Positions 1 through 57,669 of a DNA stretch of 64,000 nucleotides are shown piece after piece. The notes under the pieces are model-generated. The model made no database searches. It saw only the letters and a list, made by a program, of their open reading frames with translations, and was not told where the DNA came from. The position numbers and the translations under genes were made by a program. Origin of the DNA: Thysanoteuthis rhombus (Eukaryota; Mollusca; Cephalopoda; Oegopsida; Thysanoteuthidae); NCBI GenBank assembly GCA_963457665.1, contig OY735225.1, forward strand, positions 3,945,586 through 4,009,585. Direction: 5' to 3'. Position 1 is the stretch's first letter. Each line of letters begins with the position of its first letter.

Positions 1-201
1 GCTATCAATGTCTCCCTGACTCATATTGACGCACCTATTACCGTGGATTTGGATGTTTTTTTCCTGTTCAATGTATGATAAATTCGTTTCTTCTTTTAAT
101 CCCTCCATCACAACTTGCTGACTTTATCAAGTGTACGGTGCGCTGATTTGTCAAGATTTCTTTCTTTGGCTTGATTTCTTTCGAGCAAAACACGCTGAGA
201 A
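1..201 (+). repeat. Partial spacer of the first unit
   Basis: This is the right part of the unit spacer (T-rich, ending in the leader of the first tRNA-Arg). The rest of this unit lies left of the window. Confidence 0.95.
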
Positions 202-274
202 GTCCCTGTAGCGCAGGGGATAGCGCGCTGGACTTCTAATCCAGAGGCCGTGGGTTCGAATCCCACCAGGGATG
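202..274 (+). tRNA. tRNA-Arg-TCT: tRNA-Arg(TCT), consensus copy
   Basis: Reads AGA (and AGG by wobble) codons in cytosolic translation. The cloverleaf is complete by eye. The acceptor arm is GTCCCTG with CAGGGAT and discriminator G. The D stem is GCGC/GCGC and the anticodon stem CTGGA/TCCAG. The loop CTTCTAA gives anticodon TCT at gene nucleotides 34-36. The T arm is GTGGG-TTCGAAT-CCCAC. There is no intron and no encoded CCA. The A box is TAGCGCAGGGG and the B box GGTTCGAATCC. No TATA-like element is seen upstream. A short TTTT tract follows the gene. Residue numbers given for later Arg copies are gene nucleotides relative to this copy. Confidence 0.98.
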
Positions 275-280
275 TTTGTA

Positions 281-284
281 TTTT
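281..284 (+). terminator. Pol III terminator of tRNA-Arg
   Basis: TTTT lies 7 nt after the gene end, preceded by a weaker TTT. The same tract follows nearly all Arg copies in the array. It is a minimal terminator, so some read-through is possible. Confidence 0.6.
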
Positions 285-393
285 ATTTCATTCATCCTAT
301 TCAAGCTATAGCAGCCAGCGAACGTTTAGATTCGTTCACTGGAGGAATGCTTTGCTAGCTTTCCTTTGGAGGTAAATAAGCAACAATAGTCAG

Positions 394-404
394 TATATAT
401 AATA
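394..404 (+). promoter_or_regulatory. TATA-like element upstream of tRNA-Ile
   Basis: TATATATAATA lies at about -32 to -22 relative to the tRNA-Ile start and is kept in essentially every unit. Upstream TATA-like boxes are known to assist TFIIIB placement at tRNA genes in several eukaryotes. The Arg gene has no counterpart. In some units (near 31627, 32334, 40880 and 41590) the 3' edge changes from TATAATATGG to TATAATAGGG. Confidence 0.5.
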
Positions 405-425
405 TGGGAGCGAAACGAAAGTGTC

Positions 426-499
426 GGCCGGTTAGCTCAGTTGGTTAGAGCGTCGTGCTAATAACGCGAATGTCGTGGGTTCGAGCCCCATACTGGCCA
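426..499 (+). tRNA. tRNA-Ile-AAT: tRNA-Ile(AAT), consensus copy
   Basis: Reads isoleucine AUU/AUC after A34-to-inosine editing, as in eukaryotic cytosolic tRNA-Ile. The acceptor arm is GGCCGGT with ACTGGCC and discriminator A. The D stem is GCTC/GAGC and the anticodon stem TCGTG/CGCGA. The loop CTAATAA gives AAT at gene nucleotides 35-37. The T arm is GTGGG-TTCGAGC-CCCAT. The A box TAGCTCAGTTGG is perfect; the B box GGTTCGAGCCC has one mismatch. There is no intron and no encoded CCA. Residue numbers given for later Ile copies are gene nucleotides relative to this copy. Confidence 0.98.
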
Positions 500-506
500 A
501 GTGATC

Positions 507-510
507 TTTT
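507..510 (+). terminator. Pol III terminator of tRNA-Ile
   Basis: TTTT lies 8 nt after the gene end, in the conserved context GTGATCTTTTGG. It is kept in nearly every unit; the unit near 43115 has TCTC instead. Confidence 0.6.
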
Positions 511-908
511 GGAATCGAGTATTGGCTCCCTCCAATGCTCAATGATTAGGTTCGATTGAAAAAATCAATTAAAAAAAAATTACCGCTGGCCCAATAGAAC
601 AATAGGTAGAATATGACGAGCATTTCTTTCTACATGTGTGCATGGTGTAATGGCCGCCTTCGTGCTATTAGTACATGAATGTGTTTACTGCGATGATGCC
701 CGTCTTTGCTATCAATGTCTCCCTGACTCATATTGACGCAGCTATTACCGTGGATTTGGATGTTTTTTTCCTGTTCAATGTATGATAAATTCGTTTCTTC
801 TTTTAATCCCTCCATCACAACTTGCTGACTTTATCAAGTGTACGATGCGCTGATTTGTCAAGATTTCTTTCTTTGGCTTGATTTCTTTCGAGCAAAACAC
901 GCTGAGAA

Positions 909-981
909 GTCCCTGTAGCGCAGGGGATAGCGCGCTTGACTTCTAATCCAGAGGCCGTGGGTTCGAATCCCACCAGGGATG
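909..981 (+). tRNA. tRNA-Arg-TCT: tRNA-Arg(TCT), anticodon-stem variant
   Basis: G29T opposes C41 and makes a mismatch in the anticodon stem. Otherwise consensus. Confidence 0.93.
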
Positions 982-1132
982 TTTGTATTTTATTTCATTC
1001 ATCCTATTCAAGCTATAGCAGCCAGCGAACGTTTAGATTCGCTCACTGGAGGAATGCTTTGCTAGCTTTCCTTTGGAGGTAAATAAGCAACAATAGTCAG
1101 TATATATAATATGGGAGCGAAACGAAAGTGTC

Positions 1133-1206
1133 GGCCGGTTAGCTCAGTTGGTTAGAGCGTCGTGCTAATAACGCGAATGTCGTGGGTTCGAGCCCCATAC
1201 TGGCCA
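1133..1206 (+). tRNA. tRNA-Ile-AAT: tRNA-Ile(AAT)
   Basis: Consensus copy. Confidence 0.97.
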
Positions 1207-1615
1207 AGTGATCTTTTGGAATCGAGTATTGGCTCCCTCCAATGCTCAATGATTAGGTTCGATTGAAAAAATCAATTAAAAAAAAATTACCGCTGGCCCA
1301 ATAGAACAATAGGTAGAATATGACGAGCATTTCTTTCTACATGTGTGCATGGTGTAATGGCCGCCTTCGTGCTATTAGTACATGAATGTGTTTACTGCGA
1401 TGATGCCCGTCTTTGCTATCAATGTCTCCCTGACTCATATTGACGCACCTATTACCGTGGATTTGGATGTTTTTTACCTGTTCAATGTATGATAAATTCG
1501 TTTCTTCTTTTAATCCCTCCATCACAACTTGCTGACTTTATCAAGTGTACGGTGCGCTGATTTGTCAAGATTTCTTTCTTTGGCTTGATTTCTTTCGAGC
1601 AAAACACGCTGAGAA

Positions 1616-1688
1616 GTCCCTGTAGCGCAGGGGATAGCGCGCTGGACTTCTAATCCAGAGGCCGTGGGTTCGAATCCCACCAGGGATG
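1616..1688 (+). tRNA. tRNA-Arg-TCT: tRNA-Arg(TCT)
   Basis: Consensus copy. Confidence 0.97.
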
Positions 1689-1839
1689 TTTGTATTTTAT
1701 TTCATTCATCGTATTCAAGCTATAGCAGCCAGCGAACGTTTAGATTCGCTCACTGGAGGAATGCTTTGCTAGCTTTCCTTTGGAGGTAAATAAGCAACAA
1801 TAGTCAGTATATATAATATGGAAGCGAAACGAAAGTGTC

Positions 1840-1913
1840 GGCCGGTTAGCTCAGTTGGTTAGAGCGTCGTGCTAATAACGCGAATGTCGTGGGTTCGAGC
1901 CCCATACTGGCCA
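1840..1913 (+). tRNA. tRNA-Ile-AAT: tRNA-Ile(AAT)
   Basis: Consensus copy. First unit in the window with the 7-bp longer spacer. Confidence 0.97.
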
Positions 1914-2329
1914 AGTGATCTTTTGGAATCGACTAGACATTATTGGCTCCTTCCAATGCTCAATGATTAGGTTCGATTGAAAAAATCAATTAAAAAAAAA
2001 TTACCGCTGGCCCAATAGAACAATAGGTAGAATATGACGAGCATTTCTTTCTACATGTGTGCATGGTGTAATGGCCGCCTTCGTGCTATTAGTACATGAA
2101 TGTGTTTACTGCGATGATGCCCGTCTTTGCTATCAATGTCTCCCTGACTCATATTGACGCAGCTATTACCGTGGATTTGGATGTTTTTTTCCTGTTCAAT
2201 GTATGATAAATTCGTTTCTTCTTTTAATCCCTCCATCACAACTTGCTGACTTTATCAAGTGTACGGTGCGCTGATTTGTCAAGATTTCTTTCTTTGGCTT
2301 GATTTCTTTCGAGCAAAACACGCTGAGAA

Positions 2330-2402
2330 GTCCCTGTAGCGCAGGGGATAGCGCGCTGGACTTCTAATCCAGAGGCTGTGGGTTCGAATCCCACCAGGGA
2401 TG
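2330..2402 (+). tRNA. tRNA-Arg-TCT: tRNA-Arg(TCT)
   Basis: C48T in the variable region; stems intact. Confidence 0.96.
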
Positions 2403-2553
2403 TTTGTATTTTATTTCATTCATCCTATTCAAGCTATAGCAGCCAGCGAACGTTTAGATTCGCTCACTGGAGGAATGCTTTGCTAGCTTTCCTTTGGAGG
2501 TAAATAAGCAACAATAGTCAGTATATATAATATGGGAGCGAAACGAAAGAGTC

Positions 2554-2627
2554 GGCCGGTTAGCTCAGTAGGTTAGAGCGTCGTGCTAATAACGCAAATG
2601 TCGTGGGTTCGAGCCCCATACTGGCCA
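2554..2627 (+). tRNA. tRNA-Ile-AAT: tRNA-Ile(AAT), T17A/G43A type
   Basis: T17A in the D loop, and G43A giving a C29-A43 mismatch in the anticodon stem. First of six copies of this linked pair. Confidence 0.93.
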
Positions 2628-3036
2628 AGTGCTCTTTTGGAATCGAGTATTGGCTCCCTCCAATGCTCAATGATTAGGTTCGATTGAAAAAATCAATTAA
2701 AAAAAAATTACCGCTGGCCCAATAGAACAATAGGTAGAATATGACGAGCATTTCTTTCTACATGTGTGCATGGTGTAATGGCCGCCTTCGTGCTATCATT
2801 ACATGAATGTGTTTACTGCGATGATGCCCGTCTTTGCTATCAATGTCTCCCTGACTCATATTGACGCACCTATTACCGTGGATATGGATGTTTTTTTCCT
2901 GTTCAATGTATGATAAATTTGTTTCTTCTTTTAATCCCTCCATCACAACTTGCTGACTTTATCAAGTGTACGGTGCGCTGATTTGTCAAGATTTCTTTCT
3001 TTGGCTTGATTTCTTTCGAGCAAAACACGCTGAGAA

Positions 3037-3109
3037 GTCCCTGTAGCGCAGGGGATAGCGTGCTGGACTTTTAATCCAGAGGCCGTGGGTTCGAATCCCA
3101 CCAGGGATG
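3037..3109 (+). tRNA. tRNA-Arg body with TTT (Lys) anticodon
   Basis: The loop is CTTTTAA, so the anticodon at 3070-3072 is TTT instead of TCT (C35T). C25T leaves a G-T wobble in the D stem. All other stems and both pol III boxes are intact, so the gene looks expressible. C35 is a main identity base for arginyl-tRNA synthetase, and U35/U36 favour lysyl-tRNA synthetase, so charging could be Lys, Arg or poor. Confidence 0.9.
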
Positions 3110-3260
3110 TTTGTATTTTATTTCATTCATCCTATTCAAGCTATAGCAGCCAGCGAACGTTTAGATTCGCTCACTGGAGGAATGCTTTGCTAGCTTTCCT
3201 TTGGAGGTAAATAAGCAACAATAGTCAGTATATATAATATGGGAGCGAAACGAAAGTGTC

Positions 3261-3334
3261 GGCCGGTTAGCTCAGTTGGTTAGAGCGTCGTGCTAATAAC
3301 GCGAATGTCGTGGGTTCGAGCCCCATACTGGCCA
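3261..3334 (+). tRNA. tRNA-Ile-AAT: tRNA-Ile(AAT)
   Basis: Consensus copy. Confidence 0.97.
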
Positions 3335-3743
3335 AGTGATCTTTTGGAATCGAGTATTGGCTCCCTCCAATGCTCAATGATTAGGTTCGATTGAAAAAAT
3401 CAATTAAAAAAAAATTACCGCTGGCCCAATAGAACAATAGGTAGAATATGACGAGCATTTCTTTCTACATGTGTGCATGGTGTAATGGCCGCCTTCGTGC
3501 TATTAGTACATGAATGTGTTTACTGCGATGATGCCCGTCTTTGCTATCAATGTCTCCCTGACTCATATTGACGCAGCTATTACCGTGGATTTGGATGTTT
3601 TTTTCCTGTTCAATGTATGATAAATTCGTTTCTTCTTTTAATCCCTCCATCACAACTTGCTGACTTTATCAAGTGTACGGTGCGCTGATTTGTCAAGATT
3701 TCTTTCTTTGGCTCGATTTCTTTCGAGCAAAACACGCTGAGAA

Positions 3744-3816
3744 GTCCCTGTAGCGCAGGGGATAGCGCGCTGGACTTCTAATCCAGAGGCCGTGGGTTGG
3801 AATCCCACCAGGGATG
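3744..3816 (+). tRNA. tRNA-Arg-TCT: tRNA-Arg(TCT), T-loop variant
   Basis: C56G changes the T loop to TTGGAAT. This destroys the invariant C of the T loop and the B-box core, so transcription and the D-loop/T-loop contact are both likely impaired. Confidence 0.87.
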
Positions 3817-3967
3817 TTTGTATTTTATTTCATTCATCCTATTCAAGCTATAGCAGCCAGCGAACGTTTAGATTCGCTCACTGGAGGAATGCTTTGCTAG
3901 CTTTCCTTTGGAGGTAAATAAGCAACAATAGTCAGTATATATAATATGGGAGCGAAACGAAAGAGTC

Positions 3968-4041
3968 GGCCGGTTAGCTCAGTAGGTTAGAGCGTCGTGC
4001 TAATAACGCAAATGTCGTGGGTTCGAGCCCCATACTGGCCA
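3968..4041 (+). tRNA. tRNA-Ile-AAT: tRNA-Ile(AAT), T17A/G43A type
   Basis: Same linked substitutions as the copy at 2554. Confidence 0.93.
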
Positions 4042-4450
4042 AGTGCTCTTTTGGAATCGAGTATTGGCTCCCTCCAATGCTCAATGATTAGGTTCGATTG
4101 AAAAAATCAATTAAAAAAAAATTACCGCTGGCCCAATAGAACAATAGGTAGAATATGACGAGCATTTCTTTCTACATGTGTGCATGGTGTAATGGCCGCC
4201 TTCGTGCTATCATTACATGAATGTGTTTACTGCGATGATGCCCGTCTTTGCTATCAATGTCTCCCTGACTCATATTGACGCACCTATTACCGTGGATATG
4301 GATGTTTTTTTCCTGTTCAATGTATGATAAATTTGTTTCTTCTTTTAATCCCTCCATCACAACTTGCTGACTTTATCAAGTGTACGGTGCGCTGATTTGT
4401 CAAGATTTCTTTCTTTGGCTTGATTTCTTTCGAGCAAAACACGCTGAGAA

Positions 4451-4523
4451 GTCCCTGTAGCGCAGGGGATAGCGTGCTGGACTTCTAATCCAGAGGCCGT
4501 GGGTTCGAATCCCACCAGGGATG
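4451..4523 (+). tRNA. tRNA-Arg-TCT: tRNA-Arg(TCT)
   Basis: C25T only (G10-T25 wobble). It shares the D-stem change of the TTT copies but keeps anticodon TCT, so it may be their parent type. Confidence 0.95.
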
Positions 4524-4674
4524 TTTGTATTTTATTTCATTCATCCTATTCAAGCTATAGCAGCCAGCGAACGTTTAGATTCGCTCACTGGAGGAATGCT
4601 TTGCTAGCTTTCCTTTGGAGGTAAATAAGCAACAATAGTCAGTATATATAATATGGGAGCGAAACGAAAGTGTC

Positions 4675-4748
4675 GGCCGGTTAGCTCAGTTGGTTAGAGC
4701 GTCGTGCTAATAACGCGAATGTCGTGGGTTCGAGCCCCATACTGGCCA
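4675..4748 (+). tRNA. tRNA-Ile-AAT: tRNA-Ile(AAT)
   Basis: Consensus copy. Confidence 0.97.
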
Positions 4749-5157
4749 AGTGATCTTTTGGAATCGAGTATTGGCTCCCTCCAATGCTCAATGATTAGGT
4801 TCGATTGAAAAAATCAATTAAAAAAAAATTACCGCTGGCCCAATAGAACAATAGGTAGAATATGACGAGCATTTCTTTCTACATGTGTGCATGGTGTAAT
4901 GGCCGCCTTCGTGCTATCATTACATGAATGTGTTTACTGCGATGATGCCCGTCTTTGCTATCAATGTCTCCCTGACTCATATTGACGAACCTATTACCGT
5001 GGATATGGATGTTTTTTTCCTGTTCAATGTATGATAAATTCGTTTCTTCTTTTAATCCCTCCATCACAACTTGCTGACTTTATCAAGTGTACGGTGCGCT
5101 GATTTGTCAAGATTTCTTTCTTTGGCTCGATTTCTTTCGAGCAAAACACGCTGAGAA

Positions 5158-5230
5158 GTCCCTGTAGCGCAGGGGATAGCGCGCTGGACTTCTAATCCAG
5201 AGGCCGTGGGTTCGAATCCCACCAGGGATG
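5158..5230 (+). tRNA. tRNA-Arg-TCT: tRNA-Arg(TCT)
   Basis: Consensus copy. Confidence 0.97.
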
Positions 5231-5381
5231 TTTGTATTTTATTTCATTCATCGTATTCAAGCTATAGCAGCCAGCGAACGTTTAGATTCGCTCACTGGAG
5301 GAATGCTTTGCTAGCTTTCCTTTGGAGGTAAATAAGCAACAATAGTCAGTATATATAATATGGAAGCGAAACGAAAGTGTC

Positions 5382-5455
5382 GGCCGGTTAGCTCAGTTGG
5401 TTAGAGCGTCGTGCTAATAACGCGAATGTCGTGGGTTCGAGCCCCATACTGAACA
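5382..5455 (+). tRNA. tRNA-Ile(AAT) with broken acceptor stem, probable pseudogene
   Basis: The 3' acceptor strand is ACTGAAC instead of ACTGGCC (G71A, C72A), leaving C3-A71 and G2-A72 mismatches. The rest is consensus, including the pol III boxes. End processing and charging should be poor. Confidence 0.85.
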
Positions 5456-5871
5456 AGTGATCTTTTGGAATCGACTAGACATTATTGGCTCCTTCCAATG
5501 CTCAATGATTAGGTTCGATTGAAAAAATCAATTAAAAAAAAATTACCGCTGGCCCAATAGAACAATAGGTAGAATATGACGAGCATTTCTTTCTACATGT
5601 GTGCATGGTGTAATGGCCGCCTTCGTGCTATTAGTACATGAATGTGTTTACTGCGATGATGCCCGTCTTTGCTATCAATGTCTCCCTGACTCATATTGAC
5701 GCAGCTATTACCGTGGATTTGGATGTTTTTTTCCTGTTCAATGTATGATAAATTCGTTTCTTCTTTTAATCCCTCCATCACAACTTGCTGACTTTATCAA
5801 GTGTACGGTGCGCTGATTTGTCAAGATTTCTTTGTTTGCCTTGATTTCTTTCGAGCAAAACACGCTGAGAA

Positions 5872-5944
5872 GTCCCTGTAGCGCAGGGGATAGCGCGCTG
5901 GACTTCTAATCCAGAGGCCGTGGGTTCGAATCCCACCAGGGATG
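5872..5944 (+). tRNA. tRNA-Arg-TCT: tRNA-Arg(TCT)
   Basis: Consensus copy. The leader carries a TTTGTTTGCC variant shared with the unit at 10128. Confidence 0.97.
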
Positions 5945-6095
5945 TTTGTATTTTATTTCATTCATCCTATTCAAGCTATAGCAGCCAGCGAACGTTTAGA
6001 TTCGCTCACTGGAGGAATGCTTTGCTAGCTTTCCTTTGGAGGTAAATAAGCAACAATAGTCAGTATATATAATATGGGAGCGAAACGAAAGAGTC

Positions 6096-6169
6096 GGCCG
6101 GTTAGCTCAGTAGGTTAGAGCGTCGTGCTAATAACGCAAATGTCGTGGGTTCGAGCCCCATACTGGCCA
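6096..6169 (+). tRNA. tRNA-Ile-AAT: tRNA-Ile(AAT), T17A/G43A type
   Basis: Same linked substitutions as the copy at 2554. Confidence 0.93.
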
Positions 6170-6578
6170 AGTGCTCTTTTGGAATCGAGTATTGGCTCCC
6201 TCCAATGCTCAATGATTAGGTTCGATTGAAAAAATCAATTAAAAAAAAATTACCGCTGGCCCAATAGAACAATAGGTAGAATATGACGAGCATTTCTTTC
6301 TACATGTGTGCATGGTGTAATGGCCGCCTTCGTGCTATCATTACATGAATGTGTTTACTGCGATGATGCCCGTCTTTGCTATCAATGTCTCCCTGACTCA
6401 TATTGACGCACCTATTACCGTGGATATGGATGTTTTTTTCCTGTTCAATGTATGATAAATTTGTTTCTTCTTTTAATCCCTCCATCACAACTTGCTGACT
6501 TTATCAAGTGTACGGTGCGCTGATTTGTCAAGATTTCTTTCTTTGGCTTGATTTCTTTCGAGCAAAACACGCTGAGAA

Positions 6579-6651
6579 GTCCCTGTAGCGCAGGGGATAG
6601 CGTGCTGGACTTTTAATCCAGAGGCCGTGGGTTGGAATCCCACCAGGGATG
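6579..6651 (+). tRNA. tRNA-Arg body with TTT anticodon and T-loop change
   Basis: Anticodon TTT at 6612-6614, C25T, and C56G in the T loop. It combines the 3037-type and 3744-type changes, which suggests recombination between units. The T-loop change likely disables it. Confidence 0.85.
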
Positions 6652-6802
6652 TTTGTATTTTATTTCATTCATCCTATTCAAGCTATAGCAGCCAGCGAAC
6701 GTTTAGATTCGCTCACTGGAGGAATGCTTTGCTAGCTTTCCTTTGGAGGTAAATAAGCAACAATAGTCAGTATATATAATATGGGAGCGAAACGAAAGTG
6801 TC

Positions 6803-6876
6803 GGCCGGTTAGCTCAGTTGGTTAGAGCGTCGTGCTAATAACGCGAATGTCGTGGGTTCGAGCCCCATACTGGCCA
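6803..6876 (+). tRNA. tRNA-Ile-AAT: tRNA-Ile(AAT)
   Basis: Consensus copy; long-spacer unit. Confidence 0.97.
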
Positions 6877-7292
6877 AGTGATCTTTTGGAATCGACTAGA
6901 CATTATTGGCTCCTTCCAATGCTCAATGATTAGGTTCGATTGAAAAAATCAATTAAAAAAAAATTACCGCTGGCCCAATAGAACAATAGGTAGAATATGA
7001 CGAGCATTTCTTTCTACATGTGTGCATGGTGTAATGGCCGCCTTCGTGCTATTAGTACATGAATGTGTTTACTGCGATGATGCCCGTCTTTGCTATCAAT
7101 GTCTCCCTGACTCATATTGACGCAGCTATTACCGTGGATTTGGATGTTTTTTTCCTGTTCAATGTATGATAAATTCGTTTCTTCTTTTAATCCCTCCATC
7201 ACAACTTGCTGACTTTATCAAGTGTACGGTGCGCTGATTTGTCAAGATTTCTTTCTTTGGCTTGATTTCTTTCGAGCAAAACACGCTGAGAA

Positions 7293-7365
7293 GTCCCTGT
7301 AGCGCAGGGGATAGCGCGCTGGACTTCTAATCCAGAGGCTGTGGGTTCGAATCCCACCAGGGATG
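7293..7365 (+). tRNA. tRNA-Arg-TCT: tRNA-Arg(TCT)
   Basis: C48T only; block-duplication partner of 2330. Confidence 0.96.
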
Positions 7366-7516
7366 TTTGTATTTTATTTCATTCATCCTATTCAAGCTAT
7401 AGCAGCCAGCGAACGTTTAGATTCGCTCACTGGAGGAATGCTTTGCTAGCTTTCCTTTGGAGGTAAATAAGCAACAATAGTCAGTATATATAATATGGGA
7501 GCGAAACGAAAGAGTC

Positions 7517-7590
7517 GGCCGGTTAGCTCAGTAGGTTAGAGCGTCGTGCTAATAACGCAAATGTCGTGGGTTCGAGCCCCATACTGGCCA
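7517..7590 (+). tRNA. tRNA-Ile-AAT: tRNA-Ile(AAT), T17A/G43A type
   Basis: Same linked substitutions as the copy at 2554. Confidence 0.93.
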
Positions 7591-7999
7591 AGTGCTCTTT
7601 TGGAATCGAGTATTGGCTCCCTCCAATGCTCAATGATTAGGTTCGATTGAAAAAATCAATTAAAAAAAAATTACCGCTGGCCCAATAGAACAATAGGTAG
7701 AATATGACGAGCATTTCTTTCTACATGTGTGCATGGTGTAATGGCCGCCTTCGTGCTATCATTACATGAATGTGTTTACTGCGATGATGCCCGTCTTTGC
7801 TATCAATGTCTCCCTGACTCATATTGACGCACCTATTACCGTGGATATGGATGTTTTTTTCCTGTTCAATGTATGATAAATTTGTTTCTTCTTTTAATCC
7901 CTCCATCACAACTTGCTGACTTTATCAAGTGTACGGTGCGCTGATTTGTCAAGATTTCTTTCTTTGGCTTGATTTCTTTCGAGCAAAACACGCTGAGAA

Positions 8000-8072
8000 G
8001 TCCCTGTAGCGCAGGGGATAGCGTGCTGGACTTTTAATCCAGAGGCCGTGGGTTCGAATCCCACCAGGGATG
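8000..8072 (+). tRNA. tRNA-Arg body with TTT (Lys) anticodon
   Basis: Anticodon TTT at 8033-8035 plus C25T. Otherwise intact; block-duplication partner of 3037. Confidence 0.9.
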
Positions 8073-8223
8073 TTTGTATTTTATTTCATTCATCCTATTC
8101 AAGCTATAGCAGCCAGCGAACGTTTAGATTCGCTCACTGGAGGAATGCTTTGCTAGCTTTCCTTTGGAGGTAAATAAGCAACAATAGTCAGTATATATAA
8201 TATGGGAGCGAAACGAAAGTGTC

Positions 8224-8297
8224 GGCCGGTTAGCTCAGTTGGTTAGAGCGTCGTGCTAATAACGCGAATGTCGTGGGTTCGAGCCCCATACTGGCCA
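8224..8297 (+). tRNA. tRNA-Ile-AAT: tRNA-Ile(AAT)
   Basis: Consensus copy. Confidence 0.97.
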
Positions 8298-8706
8298 AGT
8301 GATCTTTTGGAATCGAGTATTGGCTCCCTCCAATGCTCAATGATTAGGTTCGATTGAAAAAATCAATTAAAAAAAAATTACCGCTGGCCCAATAGAACAA
8401 TAGGTAGAATATGACGAGCATTTCTTTCTACATGTGTGCATGGTGTAATGGCCGCCTTCGTGCTATTAGTACATGAATGTGTTTACTGCGATGATGCCCG
8501 TCTTTGCTATCAATGTCTCCCTGACTCATATTGACGCAGCTATTACCGTGGATTTGGATGTTTTTTTCCTGTTCAATGTATGATAAATTCGTTTCTTCTT
8601 TTAATCCCTCCATCACAACTTGCTGACTTTATCAAGTGTACGGTGCGCTGATTTGTCAAGATTTCTTTCTTTGGCTCGATTTCTTTCGAGCAAAACACGC
8701 TGAGAA

Positions 8707-15076: not shown

Positions 15077-15149
15077 GTCCCTGTAGCGCAGGGGATAGCG
15101 TGCTGGACATATAATCCAGAGGCCGTGGGTTCGAATCCCACCAGGGATG
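15077..15149 (+). tRNA. tRNA-Arg body with TAT anticodon and A33
   Basis: The loop is CATATAA: T33A and C35A, with TAT at 15110-15112 in the anticodon position. C25T is also present. Loss of U33 removes the U-turn base, so decoding is doubtful even though the stems are intact. Confidence 0.85.
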
Positions 15150-18610: not shown

Positions 18611-18683
18611 GTCCCTGTAGCGCAGGGGATAGCGCGCTGGACTTCAAATCCAGAGGCCGTGGGTTTGAATCCCACCAGGGATG
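18611..18683 (+). tRNA. tRNA-Arg body with TCA (UGA-reading) anticodon
   Basis: The loop is CTTCAAA: T36A makes anticodon TCA at 18644-18646, complementary to the UGA stop codon. C35 and U33 are kept, so arginylation stays plausible. C56T changes the T loop to TTTGAAT, which weakens the B box and a conserved tertiary contact. All stems pair. It is not a selenocysteine tRNA: the length and variable arm are those of the Arg copies. Confidence 0.88.
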
Positions 18684-25012: not shown

Positions 25013-25085
25013 GTCCCTGTAGCGCAGGGGATAGCGCGCTGGACTTATAATCCAGAGGCCGTGGGTTCGAATCCCACCAGGGATG
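25013..25085 (+). tRNA. tRNA-Arg body with TAT (Ile AUA) anticodon
   Basis: The loop is CTTATAA: C35A gives anticodon TAT at 25046-25048, with U33 intact. Every other position is consensus, so this is a clean single-base anticodon switch. It would read AUA (Ile). Loss of C35 should reduce arginylation. Confidence 0.9.
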
Positions 25086-47081: not shown

Positions 47082-47154
47082 GTCCCTGTAGCGCAGGGGA
47101 TAGCGCGCTGGACTTCTAATCCAGAGGCCGTGGGTTCGAATCCCACCAGGGATG
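47082..47154 (+). tRNA. tRNA-Arg-TCT: tRNA-Arg(TCT)
   Basis: Consensus copy. Confidence 0.97.
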
Positions 47155-47305
47155 TTTGTATTTTATTTCATTCATCCTATTCAAGCTATAGCAGCCAGCG
47201 AACGTTTAGATTCGCTCACTGGAGGAATGCTTTGCTAGCTTTCCTTTGGAGGTAAATAAGCAACAATAGTCAGTATATATAATATGGGAGCAAAACGAGA
47301 GTGTC

Positions 47306-47379
47306 GGCCGGTTAGCTCAGTTGGTTAGAGCGTCGTGCTAATAACGCGAATGTCGTGGGTTCGAGCCCCATACTGGCCA
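47306..47379 (+). tRNA. tRNA-Ile-AAT: tRNA-Ile(AAT)
   Basis: Consensus copy. Confidence 0.97.
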
Positions 47380-47791
47380 AGTGATCTTTTCGAATCGAGT
47401 AGACATTATTGGCTCCCTCCAATGCTCAATGATTAGGTTCGATTGAAAAAATCGAAAAAAAATTACTGCTGGCCCAATAGAACAATAGGTAGAATATGAC
47501 GAGCATTTCTTTCTACATGTGTGCATGGTGTAATGGCCACCTTCGTGCTATTAGTACATGAATGTGTTTACTGCGATGATGCCCGTCTTTGCTATCAATG
47601 TCTCCCTGACTCATATTGACGCAGCTATTACCGTGGATTTGGATGTTTTTTTCCTGTTCAATGTATGATAAATTCGTTTCTTCTTTTAATCCCTGCATCA
47701 CAACTTGCTGACTTTATCAAGTGTACGGTGCGCTGATTTGTCAAGATTTCTTTCTTTGGCTTGATTTCTTTCGAGCAAAACACGCTGAGAA

Positions 47792-47864
47792 GTCCCTGTA
47801 GCGCAGGGGATAGCACGCTGGACTTCTAATCCAGAGGCCGTGGGTTCGAATCCCACCAAGGATG
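47792..47864 (+). tRNA. tRNA-Arg-TCT: tRNA-Arg(TCT), two mismatches
   Basis: G24A (C11-A24) and G68A (C5-A68); the 12249 type without its D-loop change. Confidence 0.88.
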
Positions 47865-48015
47865 TTTGTATTTTATTTCATTCATCCTATTCTAGCTATA
47901 GCAGCCAGCGAACGTTTAGAATTGCTCACTGGAGGAATGCTTTGCTAGCTTTCCTTTGGAGGTAAATAAGCAACAGTAGTCAGTATATATAATATGGGAG
48001 CGAAACGAGAGTGTC

Positions 48016-48089
48016 GGCCGGTTAGCTCAGTTGGTTAGAGCGTCGTGCTAATAACGCGAATGTCGTGGGTTCGAGCCCCATACTGGCCA
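48016..48089 (+). tRNA. tRNA-Ile-AAT: tRNA-Ile(AAT)
   Basis: Consensus copy. Confidence 0.97.
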
Positions 48090-48505
48090 AGTGATCTTTT
48101 GGAATCGAGTAGACATTATTGGCTCCCTCCAATGCTCAATGATTAGGTACGATTGAAAAAATCAATTAAAAAAAAATTACCGCTGGCCCAATAGAACAAT
48201 AGGTAGAATATGACGAGCATTTCTTTCTACATGTGTGCATGGTGTAATGGCCGCCTTCGTGCTATTAGTACATGAATGTGTTTACTGCGATGATGCCCGT
48301 CTTTGCTATCAATGTCTCCCTGACTCATATCGACGCACATATTACCGTGGATTTGGATGTTTTTTTCCTGTTCAATGTATGATAAATTCGTTTCTTCTTT
48401 TAATCCCTGCATCACAACTTGCTGACTTTATCAAGTGTACGGTGCGCTGATTTGTCAAGATTTCTTTGTTTGGCTTGATTTCTTTCGAGCAAAACACGCT
48501 GAGAA

Positions 48506-48578
48506 GTCCCTGTAGCGCAGGGGATAGCGCGCTGGACTTCTAATCCAGAGGCCGTGGGTTCGAATCCCACCAGGGATG
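48506..48578 (+). tRNA. tRNA-Arg-TCT: tRNA-Arg(TCT)
   Basis: Consensus copy. Confidence 0.97.
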
Positions 48579-48729
48579 TTTGTATTTTATTTCATTCATC
48601 CTATTCAAGCTATAGCAGCCAGCGAACGTTTAGATTCGCTCACTGGAGGAATGCTTTGCTAGCTTTCCTTTGGAGGTAAATAAGCAACAATAGTCAGTAT
48701 ATATAATATGGGAGCGAAACGAAAGTGTC

Positions 48730-48803
48730 GGCCGGTTAGCTCAGTTGGTTAGAGCGTCGTGCTAATAACGCGAATGTCGTGGGTTCGAGCCCAATACTGG
48801 CCA
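48730..48803 (+). tRNA. tRNA-Ile-AAT: tRNA-Ile(AAT), T-stem variant
   Basis: C64A gives a G52-A64 mismatch; repeated at 51582. Confidence 0.91.
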
Positions 48804-49219
48804 AGTGATCTTTTCGAATCGAGTAGACATTATTGGCTCCCTCCAATGCTCAATGATTAGGTTCGATTGAAAAAATCAATTAAAAAAAAATTACCGCTGG
48901 CCCAATAGAACAATAGGTAGAATATGACGAGCATTTCTTTCTACATGTGTGCATGGTGTAATGGCCGCCTTCGTGCTATTAGTACATGAATGTGTTTACT
49001 GCGATGATGCCCGTCTTTGCTATCAATGTCTCCCTGACTCATATTGACGCAGCTATTACCGTGGATTTGGATGTTTTTTTCCTGTTCAATGTATGATAAA
49101 TTCGTTTCTTCTTTTAATCCCTGCATCACAACTTGCTGATTTTATCAAGTGTACGGTGCGCTGATTTGTCAAGATTTCTTTGTTTGGCTTGATTTCTTTC
49201 GAGCAAAACACGCTGAGAA

Positions 49220-49292
49220 GTCCCTGTAGCGCAGGGGATAGCGCGCTGGACTTCTAATCCAGAGGCCGTGGGTTCGAATCCCACCAGGGATG
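49220..49292 (+). tRNA. tRNA-Arg-TCT: tRNA-Arg(TCT)
   Basis: Consensus copy. Confidence 0.97.
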
Positions 49293-49443
49293 TTTGTATT
49301 TTATTTCATTCATCCTATTCTAGCTATAGCAGCCAGCGAACGTTTAGAATTGCTCACTGGAGGAATGCGTTGCTAGCTTTCCTTTGGAGGTAAATAAGCA
49401 ACAGTAGTCAGTATATATAATATGGGAGCGAAACAAAAGTGTC

Positions 49444-49517
49444 GGCCGGTTAGCTCAGTTGGTTAGAGCGTCGTGCTAATAACGCGAATGTCGTGGGTTC
49501 GAGCCCCATACTGGCCA
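49444..49517 (+). tRNA. tRNA-Ile-AAT: tRNA-Ile(AAT)
   Basis: Consensus copy. Confidence 0.97.
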
Positions 49518-49929
49518 AGTGATCTTTTGGAATCGAGTAGACATTATTGGCTCCCTCCAATGCTCAATGATTAGGTTCGATTGAAAAAATCGAAAAAAAA
49601 TTACTGCTGGCCCAATAGAACAATAGGTAGAATATGACGAGCATTTCTTTCTACATGTGTGCATGGTGTAATGGCCGCCTTCGTGCTATTAGTACATGAA
49701 TGTGTTTACTGCGATGATGCCCGTCTTTGCTATCAATGTCTCCCTGACTCATATTGACGCAGCTATTACCGTGGATTTGGATGTTTTTTTCCTGTTCAAT
49801 GTATGATAAATTCGTTTCTTCTTTTAATCCCTGCATCACAACTTGCTGACTTTATCAAGTGTACGGTGCGCTGATTTGTCAAGATTTCTTTGTTTGGCTT
49901 GATTTCTTTCGAGGAAAACACGCTGTGAA

Positions 49930-50002
49930 GTCCCTGTAGCGCAGGGGATAGCACGCTGGACTTCTAATTCAGAGGCCGTGGGTTCGAATCCCACCAGGGA
50001 TG
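49930..50002 (+). tRNA. tRNA-Arg-TCT: tRNA-Arg(TCT), two changes
   Basis: G24A (C11-A24 mismatch) and C40T (G30-T40 wobble). Confidence 0.91.
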
Positions 50003-50153
50003 TTTGTATTTTATTTCATTCATCCTATTCTAGCTATAGCAGCCAGCGAACGTTTAGAATTGCTCACTGGAGGAATGCTTTGCTAGCTTTCCTTTGGAGG
50101 TAAATAAGCAACAGTAGTCAGTATATATAATATGGGAGCGAAACGAGAGTGTC

Positions 50154-50227
50154 GGCCGGTTAGCTCAGTTGGTTAGAGCGTCGTGCTAATAACGCGAATG
50201 TCGTGGGTTCGAGCCCCATACTGGCCA
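50154..50227 (+). tRNA. tRNA-Ile-AAT: tRNA-Ile(AAT)
   Basis: Consensus copy. Confidence 0.97.
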
Positions 50228-50643
50228 AGTGATCTTTTCGAATCGAGTAGACATTATTGGCTCCCTCCAATGCTCAATGATTAGGTACGATTGAAAAAAT
50301 CAATTAAAAAAAAATTACCGCTGGCCCAATAGAACAATAGGTAGAATATGACGAGCATTTCTTTCTACATGTGTGCATGGTGTAATGGCCGCCTTCGTGC
50401 TATTAGTACATGAATGTGTTTACTGCGATGATGCCCGTCTTTGCTATCAATGTCTCCCTGACTCATATTGACGCAGCTATTACCGTGGATTTGGATGTTT
50501 TTTTCCTGTTCAATGTATGATAAATTCGTTTCTTCTTTTAATCCCTCCATCACAACTTGCTGACTTTATCAAGTGTACGGTGCGCTGATTTGTCAAGATT
50601 TCTTTCTTTGGCTTGATTTCTTTCGAGCAAAACACGCTGAGAA

Positions 50644-50716
50644 GTCCCTGTAGCGCAGGGGATAGCGCGCTGGACTTCTAATCCAGAGGCCGTGGGTTCG
50701 AATCCCACCAGGGATG
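50644..50716 (+). tRNA. tRNA-Arg-TCT: tRNA-Arg(TCT)
   Basis: Consensus copy. Confidence 0.97.
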
Positions 50717-50867
50717 TTTGTATTTTATTTCATTCATCCTATTCTAGCTATAGCAGCCAGCGAACGTTTAGAATTGCTCACTGGAGGAATGCTTTGCTAG
50801 CTTTCCTTTGGAGGTAAATAAGCAACAGTAGTCAGTATATATAATATGGGAGCGAAACGAGAGTGTC

Positions 50868-50941
50868 GGCCGGTTAGCTCAGTTGGTTAGAGCGTCGTGC
50901 TAATAACGCGAATGTCGTGGGTTCGAGCCCCATACTGGCCA
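50868..50941 (+). tRNA. tRNA-Ile-AAT: tRNA-Ile(AAT)
   Basis: Consensus copy. Confidence 0.97.
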
Positions 50942-51357
50942 AGTGATCTTTTGGAATCGAGTAGACATTATTGGCTCCCTCCAATGCTCAATGATTAGGT
51001 ACGATTGAAAAAATCAATTAAAAAAAAATTACCGCTGGCCCAATAGAACAATAGGTAGAATATGACGAGCATTTCTTTCTACATGTGTGCATGGTGTAAT
51101 GGCCGCCTTCGTGCTATTAGTACATGAATGTGTTTACTGCGATGATGCCCGTCTTTGCTATCAATGTCTCCCTGACTCATATTGACGCAGCTATTACCGT
51201 GGATTTGGATGTTTTTTTCCTGTTCAATGTATGATAAATTCGTTTCTTCTTTTAATCCCTCCATCACAACTTGCTGACTTTATCAAGTGTACGGTGCGCT
51301 GATTTGTCAAGATTTCTTTCTTTGGCTTGATTTCTTTCGAGCAAAACACGCTGAGAA

Positions 51358-51430
51358 GTCCCTGTAGCGCAGGGGATAGCGCGCTGGACTTCTAATCCAG
51401 AGGCCGTGGGTTCGAATCCCACCAGGGATG
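51358..51430 (+). tRNA. tRNA-Arg-TCT: tRNA-Arg(TCT)
   Basis: Consensus copy. Confidence 0.97.
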
Positions 51431-51581
51431 TTTGTATTTTATTTCATTCATCCTATTCAAGCTATAGCAGCCAGCGAACGTTTAGATTCGCTCACTGGAG
51501 GAATGCTTTGCTAGCTTTCCTTTGGAGGTAAATAAGCAACAATAGTCAGTATATATAATATGGGAGCGAAACGAAAGTGTC

Positions 51582-51655
51582 GGCCGGTTAGCTCAGTTGG
51601 TTAGAGCGTCGTGCTAATAACGCGAATGTCGTGGGTTCGAGCCCAATACTGGCCA
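51582..51655 (+). tRNA. tRNA-Ile-AAT: tRNA-Ile(AAT), T-stem variant
   Basis: C64A; partner of 48730. Confidence 0.91.
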
Positions 51656-52071
51656 AGTGATCTTTTCGAATCGAGTAGACATTATTGGCTCCCTCCAATG
51701 CTCAATGATTAGGTTCGATTGAAAAAATCAATTAAAAAAAAATTACCGCTGGCCCAATAGAACAATAGGTAGAATATGACGAGCATTTCTTTCTACATGT
51801 GTGCATGGTGTAATGGCCGCCTTCGTGCTATTAGTACATGAATGTGTTTACTGCGATGATGCCCGTCTTTGCTATCAATGTCTCCCTGACTCATATTGAC
51901 GCAGCTATTACCGTGGATTTGGATGTTTTTTTCCTGTTCAATGTATGATAAATTCGTTTCTTCTTTTAATCCCTGCATCACAACTTGCTGATTTTATCAA
52001 GTGTACGGTGCGCTGATTTGTCAAGATTTCTTTCTTTGGCTTGATTTCTTTCGAGCAAAACACGCTGAGAA

Positions 52072-52144
52072 GTCCCTGTAGCGCAGGGGATAGCGCGCTG
52101 GACTTCTAATCCAGAGGCCGTGGGTTCGAATCCCACCAGGGATG
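52072..52144 (+). tRNA. tRNA-Arg-TCT: tRNA-Arg(TCT)
   Basis: Consensus copy. Confidence 0.97.
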
Positions 52145-52295
52145 TTTGTATTTTATTTCATTCATCCTATTCAAGCTATAGCAGCCAGCGAACGTTTAGA
52201 TTCGCTCACTGGAGGAATGCTTTGCTAGCTTTCCTTTGGAGGTAAATAAGCAACAATAGTCAGTATATATAATATGGGAGCGAAACGAGAGTGTC

Positions 52296-52369
52296 GGCCG
52301 GTTAGCTCAGTTGGTTAGAGCGTCGTGCTAATAACGCGAATGTCGTGGGTTCGAGCCCCATACTGGCCA
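52296..52369 (+). tRNA. tRNA-Ile-AAT: tRNA-Ile(AAT)
   Basis: Consensus copy. Confidence 0.97.
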
Positions 52370-52787
52370 AGTGATCTTTTCGAATCGAGTAGACATTATT
52401 GGCTCCCTCCAATGCTCAATGATTAGGTTCGATTGAAAAAATCAATTAGTAAAAAAAATTACCGCTGGCCCAATAGAACAATAGGTAGAATATGACGAGC
52501 ATTTCTTTCTATATGTGTGCATGGTGTAATGGCCGCTTTCGTGCTATTAGTACATGAATGTGTTTACTGCGATGATGCCCGTCTTTGCTATCAATGTCTC
52601 CCTGACTCAAATTGACGCAGCTATTACCGTGGATTTGGATGTTTTTTTCCTGTTCAATGTATGATAAATTCGTTTCTTCTTTTAATCCCTGCATCACAAC
52701 TTGCTGACTTTATCAAGTGTACGGTGCGCTGATTTGTCAAGATTTCTTTCTTTGGCTTGATTTCTTTCGAGCAAAACACGCTGAGAA

Positions 52788-52860
52788 GTCCCTGTAGCGC
52801 AGGGGATAGCGCGCTGGACTTCTAATCCAGAGGCCGTGGGTTCGAATCCCACCAGGGATG
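52788..52860 (+). tRNA. tRNA-Arg-TCT: tRNA-Arg(TCT)
   Basis: Consensus copy. Confidence 0.97.
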
Positions 52861-53011
52861 TTTGTATTTTATTTCATTCATCCTATTCAAGCTATAGCAG
52901 CCAGCGAACGTTTAGATTCGCTCACTGGAGGAATGCTTTGCTAGCTTTCCTTTGGAGGTAAATAAGCAACAATAGTCAGTATATATAATATGGGAGCGAA
53001 ACGAAAGTGTC

Positions 53012-53085
53012 GGCCGGTTAGCTCAGTTGGTTAGAGCGTCGTGCTAATAACGCGAATGTTGTTGGTTCGAGCCCCATACTGGCCA
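53012..53085 (+). tRNA. tRNA-Ile-AAT: tRNA-Ile(AAT), T-stem variant
   Basis: C49T and G52T (T52-C64 mismatch). Confidence 0.91.
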
Positions 53086-53501
53086 AGTGATCTTTTGGAA
53101 TCGAGTAGACATTATTGGCCCCCTCCAATGCTCAATGATTAGGTTCGATTGAAAAAATCAATTAAAAAAAAATTACCGCTGGCCCAATAGAACAATAGGT
53201 AGAATATGACGAGCATTTCTTTCTACATGTGTGCATGGTGTAATGGCCGCCTTCGTGCTATTAGTACATGAATGTGTTTACTGCGATGATGCCCGTCTTT
53301 GCTATCAATGTCTCCCTGACTCATATTGACGCAGCTATTACCGTGGATTTGGATGTTTTTTTCCTGTTCAATGTATGATAAATTCGTTTCTTCTTTTAAT
53401 CCCTGCATCACAACTTGCTGACTTTATCAAGTGTACGGTGCGCTGATTTGTCAAGATTTCTTTGTTTGGCTTGATTTCTTTCGAGCAAAACACGCTGAGA
53501 A

Positions 53502-53574
53502 GTCCCTGTAGCGCAGGGGATAGCGCGCTGGACTTCTAATCCAGAGGCCGTGGGTTCGAATCCCACCAGGGATG
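53502..53574 (+). tRNA. tRNA-Arg-TCT: tRNA-Arg(TCT)
   Basis: Consensus copy. Confidence 0.97.
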
Positions 53575-53725
53575 TTTGTATTTTATTTCATTCATCCTAT
53601 TCAAGCTATAGCAGCCAGCGAACGTTTAGATTCGCTCACTGGAGGAATGCTTTGCTAGCTTTCCTTTGGAGGTAAATAAGCAACAATAGTCAGTATATAT
53701 AATATGGGAGCGAAACGAAAGTGTC

Positions 53726-53799
53726 GGCCGGTTAGCTCAGTTGGTTAGAGCGTCGTGCTAATAACGCGAATGTCGTGGGTTCGAGCCCCATACTGGCCA
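53726..53799 (+). tRNA. tRNA-Ile-AAT: tRNA-Ile(AAT)
   Basis: Consensus copy. Confidence 0.97.
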
Positions 53800-54216
53800 A
53801 GTGATCTTTTCGAATCGAGTAGACATTATTGGCTCCCTCCAATGCTCGATGATTAGGTTCGATTGAAAAAATCAATTAGAAAAAAAATTACCGCTGGCCC
53901 AATAGAACAATAGGTAGAATATGACGAGCATTTCTTTCTACATGTGTGCATGGTGTAATGGCCGCTTTCGTGCTATTAGTACATGAATGTGTTTACTGCG
54001 ATGATGCCCGTCTTTGCTATCAATGTCTCCCTGACTCATATTGACGCAGCTATTACCGTGGATTTGGATGTTTTTTTCCTGTTCAATGTATGATAAATTC
54101 GTTTCTTCTTTTAATCCCTGCATCACAACTTGCTGATTTTATCAAGTGTACGGTGCGCTGATTTGTCAAGATTTCTTTCTTTGGCTTGATTTCTTTCGAG
54201 CAAAACACGCTGAGAA

Positions 54217-54289
54217 GTCCCTGTAGCGCAGGGGATAGCGCGCTGGACTTCTAATCCAGAGGCCGTGGGTTCGAATCCCACCAGGGATG
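54217..54289 (+). tRNA. tRNA-Arg-TCT: tRNA-Arg(TCT)
   Basis: Consensus copy. Confidence 0.97.
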
Positions 54290-54440
54290 TTTGTATTTTA
54301 TTTCATTCATCCTATTCAAGCTATAGCAGCCAGCGAACGTTTAGATTCGCTCACTGGAGGAATGCTTTGCTAGCTTTCCTTTGGAGGTAAATAAGCAACA
54401 ATAGTCAGTATATATAATATGGGAGCGAAACGAAAGTGTC

Positions 54441-54514
54441 GGCCGGTTAGCTCAGTTGGTTAGAGCGTCGTGCTAATAACGCGAATGTCGTGGGTTCGAG
54501 CCCCATACTGGCCA
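54441..54514 (+). tRNA. tRNA-Ile-AAT: tRNA-Ile(AAT)
   Basis: Consensus copy. Confidence 0.97.
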
Positions 54515-54931
54515 AGTGATCTTTTCGAATCGAGTAGACATTATTGGCTCCCTCCAATGCTCGATGATTAGGTTCGATTGAAAAAATCAATTAGAAAAAA
54601 AATTACCGCTGGCCCAATAGAACAATAGGTAGAATATGACGAGCATTTCTTTCTACATGTGTGCATGGTGTAATGGCCGCTTTCGTGCTATTAGTACATG
54701 AATGTGTTTACTGCGATGATGCCCGTCTTTGCTATCAATGTCTCCCTGACTCATATTGACGCAGCTATTACCGTGGATTTGGATGTTTTTTTCCTGTTCA
54801 ATGTATGATAAATTCGTTTCTTCTTTTAATCCCTGCATCACAACTTGCTGATTTTATCAAGTGTACGGTGCGCTGATTTGTCAAGATTTCTTTCTTTGGC
54901 TTGATTTCTTTCGAGCAAAACACGCTGAGAA

Positions 54932-55004
54932 GTCCCTGTAGCGCAGGGGATAGCGCGCTGGACTTCTAATCCAGAGGCCGTGGGTTCGAATCCCACCAGG
55001 GATG
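54932..55004 (+). tRNA. tRNA-Arg-TCT: tRNA-Arg(TCT), last intact copy
   Basis: Consensus copy. Confidence 0.97.
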
Positions 55005-55155
55005 TTTGTATTTTATTTCATTCATCCTATTCAAGCTATAGCAGCCAGCGAACGTTTAGATTCGCTCACTGGAGGAATGCTTTGCTAGCTTTCCTTTGGA
55101 GGTAAATAAGCAACAATAGTCAGTATATATAATATGGGAGCGAAACGTAAGTGTC

Positions 55156-55229
55156 GGCCGGTTAGCTCAGTTGGTTAGAGCGTCGTGCTAATAACGCGAA
55201 TGTTGTGGGTTCGAGCCCCATACTGGCCA
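55156..55229 (+). tRNA. tRNA-Ile-AAT: tRNA-Ile(AAT), last intact copy
   Basis: C49T only. Confidence 0.96.
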
Positions 55230-55640
55230 AGTGATCTTTTGGAATCGAGTAGACATTATTGGCTCCCTCCAATGCTCAATGATTAGGTTTGATTGAAAAA
55301 ATCGAAAAAAAATTACTGCTGGCCCAATAGAACAATAGGTAGAATATGACGAGCATTTCTTTCTACATGTGTGCATGGTGTAATGGCCGCCTTCGTGCTA
55401 TTAGTACATGAATGTGTTTACTGCGATGATGCCCGTCTTTGCTATCAATGTCTCCCTGACTTATATTGACGCACCTATTACCGTGGATTGGATGTTTTTT
55501 TCCTGTTCAATGTATGATAAATTCGTTTCTTCTTTTAATCCCTCCATCACAACTTGCTGACTTTATCAAGTGTACGGTGCGCTGATTTGTCAAGATTTCT
55601 TTCTTTGGCTTGATTTCTTTCGAGCAAAACACGCTGAGAA

Positions 55641-55712
55641 ATCCCTGTAGCGCAGGGGATAGCGCGCTGGACTTCTAATCCAGAGGCCGTGCTAATAACG
55701 CGAATACTGGCA
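55641..55712 (+). pseudogene. Chimeric tRNA-Arg/tRNA-Ile remnant at the array edge
   Basis: The first 50 nt match tRNA-Arg(TCT) except G1A. At the shared tetramer CGTG (55688-55691) the sequence switches to the anticodon arm of tRNA-Ile (loop CTAATAA, AAT at 55694-55696). It then skips about 20 nt holding the Ile T arm, at a shared AT dinucleotide, and ends in ACTGGCA from the Ile acceptor. There is no B box, so it should not be transcribed. About 300 bp between the Arg and Ile genes are lost at the first junction. Confidence 0.9.
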
Positions 55713-55759
55713 AAGTGATCTTTTGGAATCGAGTAGAATGGCCGCATTCGTGCTATTAG
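55713..55759 (+). repeat. Last fragment of the unit spacer
   Basis: The spacer resumes after the chimeric remnant. It then jumps from the sequence just behind the Ile gene to the segment ATGGCCGC...GCTATTAG, after which no unit homology is seen. Confidence 0.85.

Positions 55760-57129: not shown

Positions 57130-57130
<1 letters not shown>

Positions 57131-57553: not shown

Positions 57554-57669
<116 letters not shown>

Follow-up and report, generated by a model that had tools for sequence, protein, structure and literature searches.

Tandem arrays are an uncommon arrangement of tRNA genes, yet one documented in Hydractinia, Nematostella, teleosts, Xenopus, human, and Entamoeba. Hydractinia and Nematostella carry arrays for the tRNAs of all 20 amino acids (PMC11067881), and Bermudez-Santana et al. 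report tRNA gene clusters of fifty and more in Nematostella and teleosts, the teleost cluster that they illustrate being made of Arg(TCT) and Thr genes (PMC2888827). The human variable number tandem repeat at 1q23.3 has 9-43 GC-rich units of 7.3 kb, each containing five tRNA genes distributed over the two strands (PMC4041453). In Entamoeba, a tandem unit holds as many as 5 tRNA genes, and short tandem repeats separate the genes (PMC2652664), while the tandem tRNA genes of Xenopus are oocyte-specific (PMC11500080). The array reported here, built from a tRNA-Arg/tRNA-Ile unit in the cephalopod Thysanoteuthis rhombus, joins that kind. It fills most of the window, the whole stretch of 64,000 nucleotides that was analysed (C30:3945586-4009585, on the 53.3-Mb contig C30 of a 2.73-Gb assembly of 514 contigs); 200 kb to the left were added to the analysis, giving a 264-kb stretch with the window. 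Our reading, to which we give a probability of roughly 0.7, is that this is a redundant RNA polymerase III (pol III) gene unit that unequal exchange has multiplied and kept uniform, with weak purifying selection acting on its tRNAs. The unit would provide tRNA-Arg(UCU) and tRNA-Ile(AAU, read as IAU) from a tandem resembling ribosomal DNA (rDNA) in an animal nuclear genome.

ARAGORN finds 156 tRNA genes in the window, at 202-55229 and all on the + strand, with 78 Arg-type and 78 Ile-AAT genes in strict alternation, the same count and orientation as in the original prediction, which had been made from the letters of the window. Cut at a fixed anchor, the window yields 78 units of 705-718 bp, most commonly of 707 bp (23/78) and then of 714 bp (18/78), which bears out the proposed rDNA-like tandem of a fixed 0.71-kb Arg/Ile unit. 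The further claim of at least 78 Arg/Ile pairs stands insofar as all 78 units hold both gene types, but is overstated, because seven of the 78 Arg-type genes have altered anticodons and were counted as Arg. The features of unit 1 serve as representatives:

202..274, + strand: tRNA-Arg(TCT), found by ARAGORN, 72.2 bits in Rfam; 71 of the window's 78 Arg-type genes read TCT.
281..284, + strand: TTTT run, putative Arg terminator, at offset +7; in 77/78 copies of the window and 153/155 of the whole array.
394..405, + strand: TATATATAATAT, TATA-like element with a putative promoter role, 21-32 bases upstream of the Ile gene.
426..499, + strand: tRNA-Ile(AAT), found by ARAGORN, 64.3 bits in Rfam; 78 in the window.
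507..510, + strand: TTTT run, putative Ile terminator, at offset +8; in 77/78 copies of the window and 154/155 of the whole array.

The TATA-like element TATATATAATAT is intact in 74/78 units of the window and 151/155 of the whole array. We take the T4 runs to be pol III terminators and the TATA-like stretch to be part of a pol III promoter. Because each gene has an apparent internal promoter and a T4 terminator of its own, the two are probably separate pol III genes. With the Rfam tRNA model, the 156 genes score 46.2-72.8 bits (gathering score 29), and all 21 of the 21 standard stem pairs form in both consensus tRNAs. Rfam and ARAGORN both accept the consensus copies as genuine tRNAs, in line with the original prediction. 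If a tRNA is called intact when its anticodon, all 21 stem pairs, and the T loop are kept, then 51/78 Arg-type and 54/78 Ile genes of the window are intact, with both intact in 34/78 units; the corresponding numbers for the whole array are 123/155, 105/155, and 82/155. Many copies look like working genes.

The array, called array 1 from here on, continues to the left with a higher copy number, as had been anticipated. It runs for about 54 kb beyond the window and then stops:

C30:3891022..4001344, + strand: array 1, whole, 155 units.
1..55759 of the window, + strand: right part of array 1, with part of a unit at the left edge, 78 complete units, the first near 180, and a truncated end.
55619..55759 of the window, + strand: right end of array 1, in pieces 55619-55691, 55688-55705, 55704-55737, and 55737-55759, which overlap by 1-4 bases.

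In its full length of about 110 kb, array 1 has 155 units of 697-718 bp, head to tail and in a single orientation, of which the window holds units 78-155. Its 310 tRNA genes carry the anticodons Arg-TCT (146), Ile-AAT (154), TAT (4), TTT (4), GAT (1), and TCA (1). Both ends are reached inside the 53-Mb contig. The left junction falls within the long spacer, and at the right the unit sequence stops at 55759, the coordinate originally given for the end; deletions have shortened the last unit there, of which four pieces remain in order. A chimeric fragment there (55641-55706) has a weak Rfam tRNA match of 29.5 bits, an extra row beyond the 156 genes. The array genes aside, ARAGORN finds no tRNA gene in the 264-kb stretch. 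A degenerate tRNA-Ile copy, 86.7% identical over 60 bp, lies about 5.4 kb to the left of the array at C30:3885552-3885610, on the minus strand and thus opposite to the array. The G+C content is 42-43% in the array versus 32-36% in the right flank. Tandem Repeats Finder misses the array, the longest period that it handles being 500.

Within array 1, 132 of the 155 units are distinct, the mean pairwise difference is 1.8%, and 29 pairs of units are identical. Near-identical units lie in blocks of up to seven consecutive units at lag 2 and six at lag 7, where a run allows at most two differences at one lag, without a shuffle control for the whole of array 1; in the window, runs of three units are seen, and 300 shuffles of unit order give at most two. 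Homogeneity is uneven along the array: units 1-80 differ from the consensus by 2.5-5.9 substitutions, with units 41-80 the most homogeneous (2.5-3.2), and units 81-155, the least homogeneous, by 6.2-12.7, so that the window shows the more degraded part of array 1.

A second array, array 2, starts 5.4 kb to the right of the window, at C30:4015004-4036701, on the opposite strand and 13.7 kb beyond the end of array 1. In the joined stretch it has 62 tRNA genes (61 by locus), namely 31 Ile(AAT), 30 Arg(TCT), and one TTT. The outermost Arg-type gene (L021:5419-5491) has this TTT, a Lys-type anticodon, and a 3' flank unlike the unit. Thirty units can be aligned, 22/30 of them of 710 bp. One variant is present in 30/30 units of array 2 and another in 26/30, and both are found in 0/155 units of array 1; two units differ on average by 6.2 substitutions if both come from array 2, by 11.5 if both come from array 1 (sampled), and by 13.4 if they come from different arrays. 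ARAGORN finds no tRNA gene in the 13.7 kb between them (C30:4001345-4015003, mostly in the window). At so short a distance, pairing of the two inverted arrays, or an exchange between them through inversion, is conceivable.

The arrays show block duplications as well as array-specific variants, as is the case under concerted evolution. Such a pattern is what unequal exchange that homogenises the units unevenly should leave, and we infer the exchange from these two observations. The same exchange of unit blocks would keep each array homogeneous. Gene conversion was rejected as the main homogeniser. Across 68 sites in the 78 units of the window, association and distance have a Spearman correlation of -0.003 (233/500 permutations as low), while at the same sites mean r2 drops from 0.086 to 0.046 and four-gamete pairs climb from 4% to 16-19%. 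Site association scarcely tracks distance, and therefore block exchange is preferred, with some exchange inside units.

Copies of the unit are not confined to these two arrays. An exact spacer 30-mer has 104 forward and 61 reverse matches genome-wide (reversed control 0). Array 1 accounts for the 104 forward matches and array 2 for 25 reverse ones, and the 264-kb stretch around array 1 has 0 reverse matches; therefore, 36 lie elsewhere. The exact 72-nt Arg body has 122 forward and 49 reverse matches genome-wide, with 20 forward and 23 reverse beyond those placed among the matches listed. These exact matches without a place imply further copies, and probably another cluster. Six 1-kb probes of contig C30, five at 4.085-4.185 Mb and one at 3.725 Mb, contain no tRNA.

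Among the matches listed, the Arg body also occurs on four other contigs (C1, C8, C14, and C22), and ARAGORN calls Arg(TCT) at each. On C1 and C8, a further Arg(TCT) gene, matching the array consensus at 98.6% identity, lies within 1 kb of the first. On C22, the Arg gene is identical at 73/73 bases, and downstream of it follow diverged array spacer and an Ile gene that is broken. Aligned against 300 shuffles, the C22 spacer with Ile reaches z 22.7, the spacer alone z 11.3, and the 5' flank z 6.6. The C8 spacer is likewise related to the unit (z 9.2), the C1 and C14 flanks show no relation to it in shuffle-tested alignment, and C14 and C22 are alike over some 40 bases 3' of the Arg gene. By this comparison, C22 is an old paralogue of the array unit. 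The constant Arg gene amid diverging surroundings is best explained by selection on that gene, or by conversion between its copies. A tRNA-derived short interspersed nuclear element was considered and rejected: the units are tandem, and a diverged flank of the unit accompanies two of the four dispersed Arg genes listed but not the other two. The C22 locus also suggests that the Arg-Ile pair is older than the tandem array. Its probable ancestor is a dispersed Arg-Ile module, of which one diverged paralogue is seen; one copy of the pair would have become tandem and would then have been amplified by unequal exchange of unit blocks. A possible origin is thereby visible, in that an older Arg-Ile locus of the same layout persists elsewhere in the genome, its Ile broken and its Arg unchanged.

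The evidence on selection comes from how far variants spread among copies, expressed as tRNA/spacer ratios corrected for base class, with pooled values covering three blocks (array 1 left, array 1 right, and array 2). Resampling was over sites, not histories. Variants in the tRNAs spread to fewer copies than those in the spacer, at a pooled ratio of 0.60 (0.39-0.90). For array 2 alone, added and tested after the reduced-spread pattern had been seen in array 1, the ratio of copies reached is 0.27 (0.11-0.58). The lowest spread ratio, 0.22 (0.09-0.46), is that of Arg variants in the left 80 units, a part delimited after the break in homogeneity had been seen; 2/392 overlapping spacer windows are as low. 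When the whole array is compared with the 392 overlapping 73-bp spacer windows, none is as low as Arg and 15 are as low as Ile, a comparison that, with overlapping windows, is no more than suggestive. The window taken alone had suggested neutrality, with equal polymorphism in tRNAs and spacer; this first impression was revised once the whole array and array 2 gave similar entry and reduced spread.

Several results weigh against selection on the tRNAs. With both tRNAs taken together, neither the left 80 units (0.52, 0.24-1.03) nor units 81-155 (0.70, 0.43-1.13) are significant alone. New alleles are about as frequent in tRNAs as in spacer, with ratios of 1.07 (0.82-1.37) in array 1 and 0.90 (0.70-1.16) pooled. 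Alleles that break stem pairs are at random expectation in array 1 (Arg 12 versus 13.8, Ile 14 versus 13.2) and spread as widely as the remaining tRNA alleles, at a mean of 2.96 copies versus 2.69. No significant difference separates tRNA from spacer alleles in their copy-number spectra (p 0.10-0.12). Furthermore, conversion between copies could also yield the identity of the dispersed Arg genes. Taken together, the reduced spread of damaged tRNAs is borderline to moderate evidence of weak purifying selection. Selection would be weak per copy because the copies are redundant, and damaged tRNAs would arise freely but spread to fewer copies than spacer variants. The net effect may be a large, tunable dose of two tRNAs.

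Array 1 has 9/155 Arg-type genes with a changed anticodon (four TTT, four TAT, one TCA), and one Ile gene reads GAT. Seven of the nine lie in the window, where ARAGORN calls four TTT, two TAT, and one TCA among the 78 Arg-type genes:

3037..3109, + strand: Arg-type gene with anticodon TTT (Lys); further TTT copies at 6579, 8000, and 10835.
6579..6651, + strand: Arg-type gene with TTT and C56G in the T loop/B box.
15077..15149, + strand: Arg-type gene with TAT and T33A.
18611..18683, + strand: Arg-type gene with TCA (UGA-reading) and C56T, labelled SeC by ARAGORN.

Another TAT copy, at 25013, is without a second hit. The TTT copies have C25T in common and have multiplied together with their blocks; C25T probably preceded the TTT change, because one further copy carries C25T alone. 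A change at U33 or C56, positions on which decoding and the B box depend, is present in 3/7 altered versus 2/71 other copies of the window (Fisher p 0.004) and in 3/9 versus 4/146 of the whole array (p 0.004), a test that is post hoc and made on related copies. Judging by these second hits, mis-decoding copies may be dead or silenced.

Among the alternatives, a developmentally restricted supply of the oocyte type, silent in most tissues and switched on in oogenesis or the early embryo, is compatible with our reading and would refine it. The Xenopus tandem genes offer a precedent (PMC11500080), a tandem tRNA cluster in Arabidopsis is described as mostly silenced (PMC12308677), and limited expression would ease the tolerance of changed anticodons. 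Among the features examined, however, none indicates stage control, and we regard this refinement as possible but tentative. The original prediction had also raised the roles of a selfishly expanded satellite and of pol III-bound chromatin beside that of meeting a high tRNA demand. Of its suggestions, redundant supply fits best. In a selfish or neutral satellite, the tRNA genes would ride along as passengers, or would favour amplification through pol III transcription and fork stalling, copy number would drift, and the array tRNAs would be dispensable, genes elsewhere being sufficient. New alleles do enter the tRNAs at about the spacer rate, anticodon-changed copies have multiplied too (TTT in four units), 73/155 units lack an intact pair, and intact Arg genes are present outside the arrays. 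A pure selfish satellite is nevertheless a poorer fit, because loci outside the arrays carry the identical Arg gene and tRNA variants are in fewer copies (0.60 pooled, 0.27 in array 2, and 0.22 for Arg in the left 80 units), and we think it unlikely. That the block of pol III genes acts as a chromatin element, a boundary or clustering site as proposed for human 1q23.3, has the density of tRNA genes and that precedent (PMC4041453) in its favor, but nothing in the sequence demands such a role, which makes it improbable. More improbable still is that the array is a reservoir of altered decoders, in which Lys(UUU), Ile(UAU), and UGA-reading (UCA) anticodons on an Arg body arise and multiply and some are transcribed; were this true, it would mean heritable, copy-number-dependent misreading or stop read-through in an animal. 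Least credible is an assembly artefact in which the assembler inflated a few real units: 29 pairs of units are identical, but 132/155 are distinct with block structure, the arrays have their own variants, and both ends of array 1 lie inside the 53-Mb contig, so that, on the evidence of its sequence, the array is not a simple assembly inflation.

The right flank of the window holds other repeats:

61423-62289: remains of a non-LTR (long terminal repeat) retrotransposon reverse transcriptase; nearest named protein from Macrobrachium nipponense, 56% identity.
62298-62332: (ATG)n tract trailing these remains (Tandem Repeats Finder).
60531-60639 and 62209-62315: inverted repeat pair, 109 bp aligned, 83% identity.
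57554-57669: (AT)n tract (Tandem Repeats Finder).

A protein search with the reverse transcriptase piece gives 14 matches, the named ones only from Macrobrachium nipponense and Necator americanus, and its RVT_1 match is below the Pfam cut-off. The inverted repeat pair probably represents two 3' ends of one retrotransposon family in opposite orientation. Weak, sub-threshold Rfam matches at 57513-57669, over the (AT)n tract, were taken as chance. A protein search with an open reading frame (ORF) of the spacer gives no candidate, and one with the gene-like ORF at 58261-58734 gives 12 candidates, none at E <= 0.001. Nine flank ORFs have three weak Pfam matches (RVT_1, GCFC, and an LRR model), all below the curated cut-offs. 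Two exact patterns have 0 matches in viral contigs.

The locus matters because hundreds of copies of two essential genes with array-specific variants allow a direct test of working gene banks against satellites, the variants, among them Arg C4T and Ile G43A, being readable by tRNA sequencing. To call the arrangement striking, as was done at the outset, is fair, but such arrays are described in several animals (PMC2888827, PMC11067881, PMC4041453). Among the titles and abstracts listed in searches of open-access papers, none names an Arg/Ile tandem array. The Entamoeba arrays are alike in having tandem multi-tRNA units. The short intergenic repeats are a feature of Entamoeba, and none is reported in the present array: Tandem Repeats Finder (score >=50, period <=500) gives four rows, all at 57094-62850 and none in the array. 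The Xenopus genes are likewise tandemly arrayed animal tRNA genes, with oocyte-specific expression. The human 1q23.3 repeat is also a tandem unit with several tRNA genes, to be compared with 0.71 kb, two genes, and one strand here; repeats of that human type are further marked by copy numbers that vary among individuals and by CTCF binding, and the present analysis covers one assembly. Hydractinia and Nematostella have arrays for all 20 amino acids; here, where the Arg/Ile unit was the one examined, a paired unit has an inverted array nearby. The teleost clusters are similar in being heterogeneous, with many Arg(TCT) copies plus a second tRNA, but differ from the present array, in which the partner is Ile(AAT) rather than Thr and one fixed 0.71-kb repeat runs through 155 units. 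Ultimately, the Arg/Ile pairing, the compact unit, the size, the inverted neighbour, and the surviving dispersed paralogue are distinctive details of a known kind of array and not a new principle.

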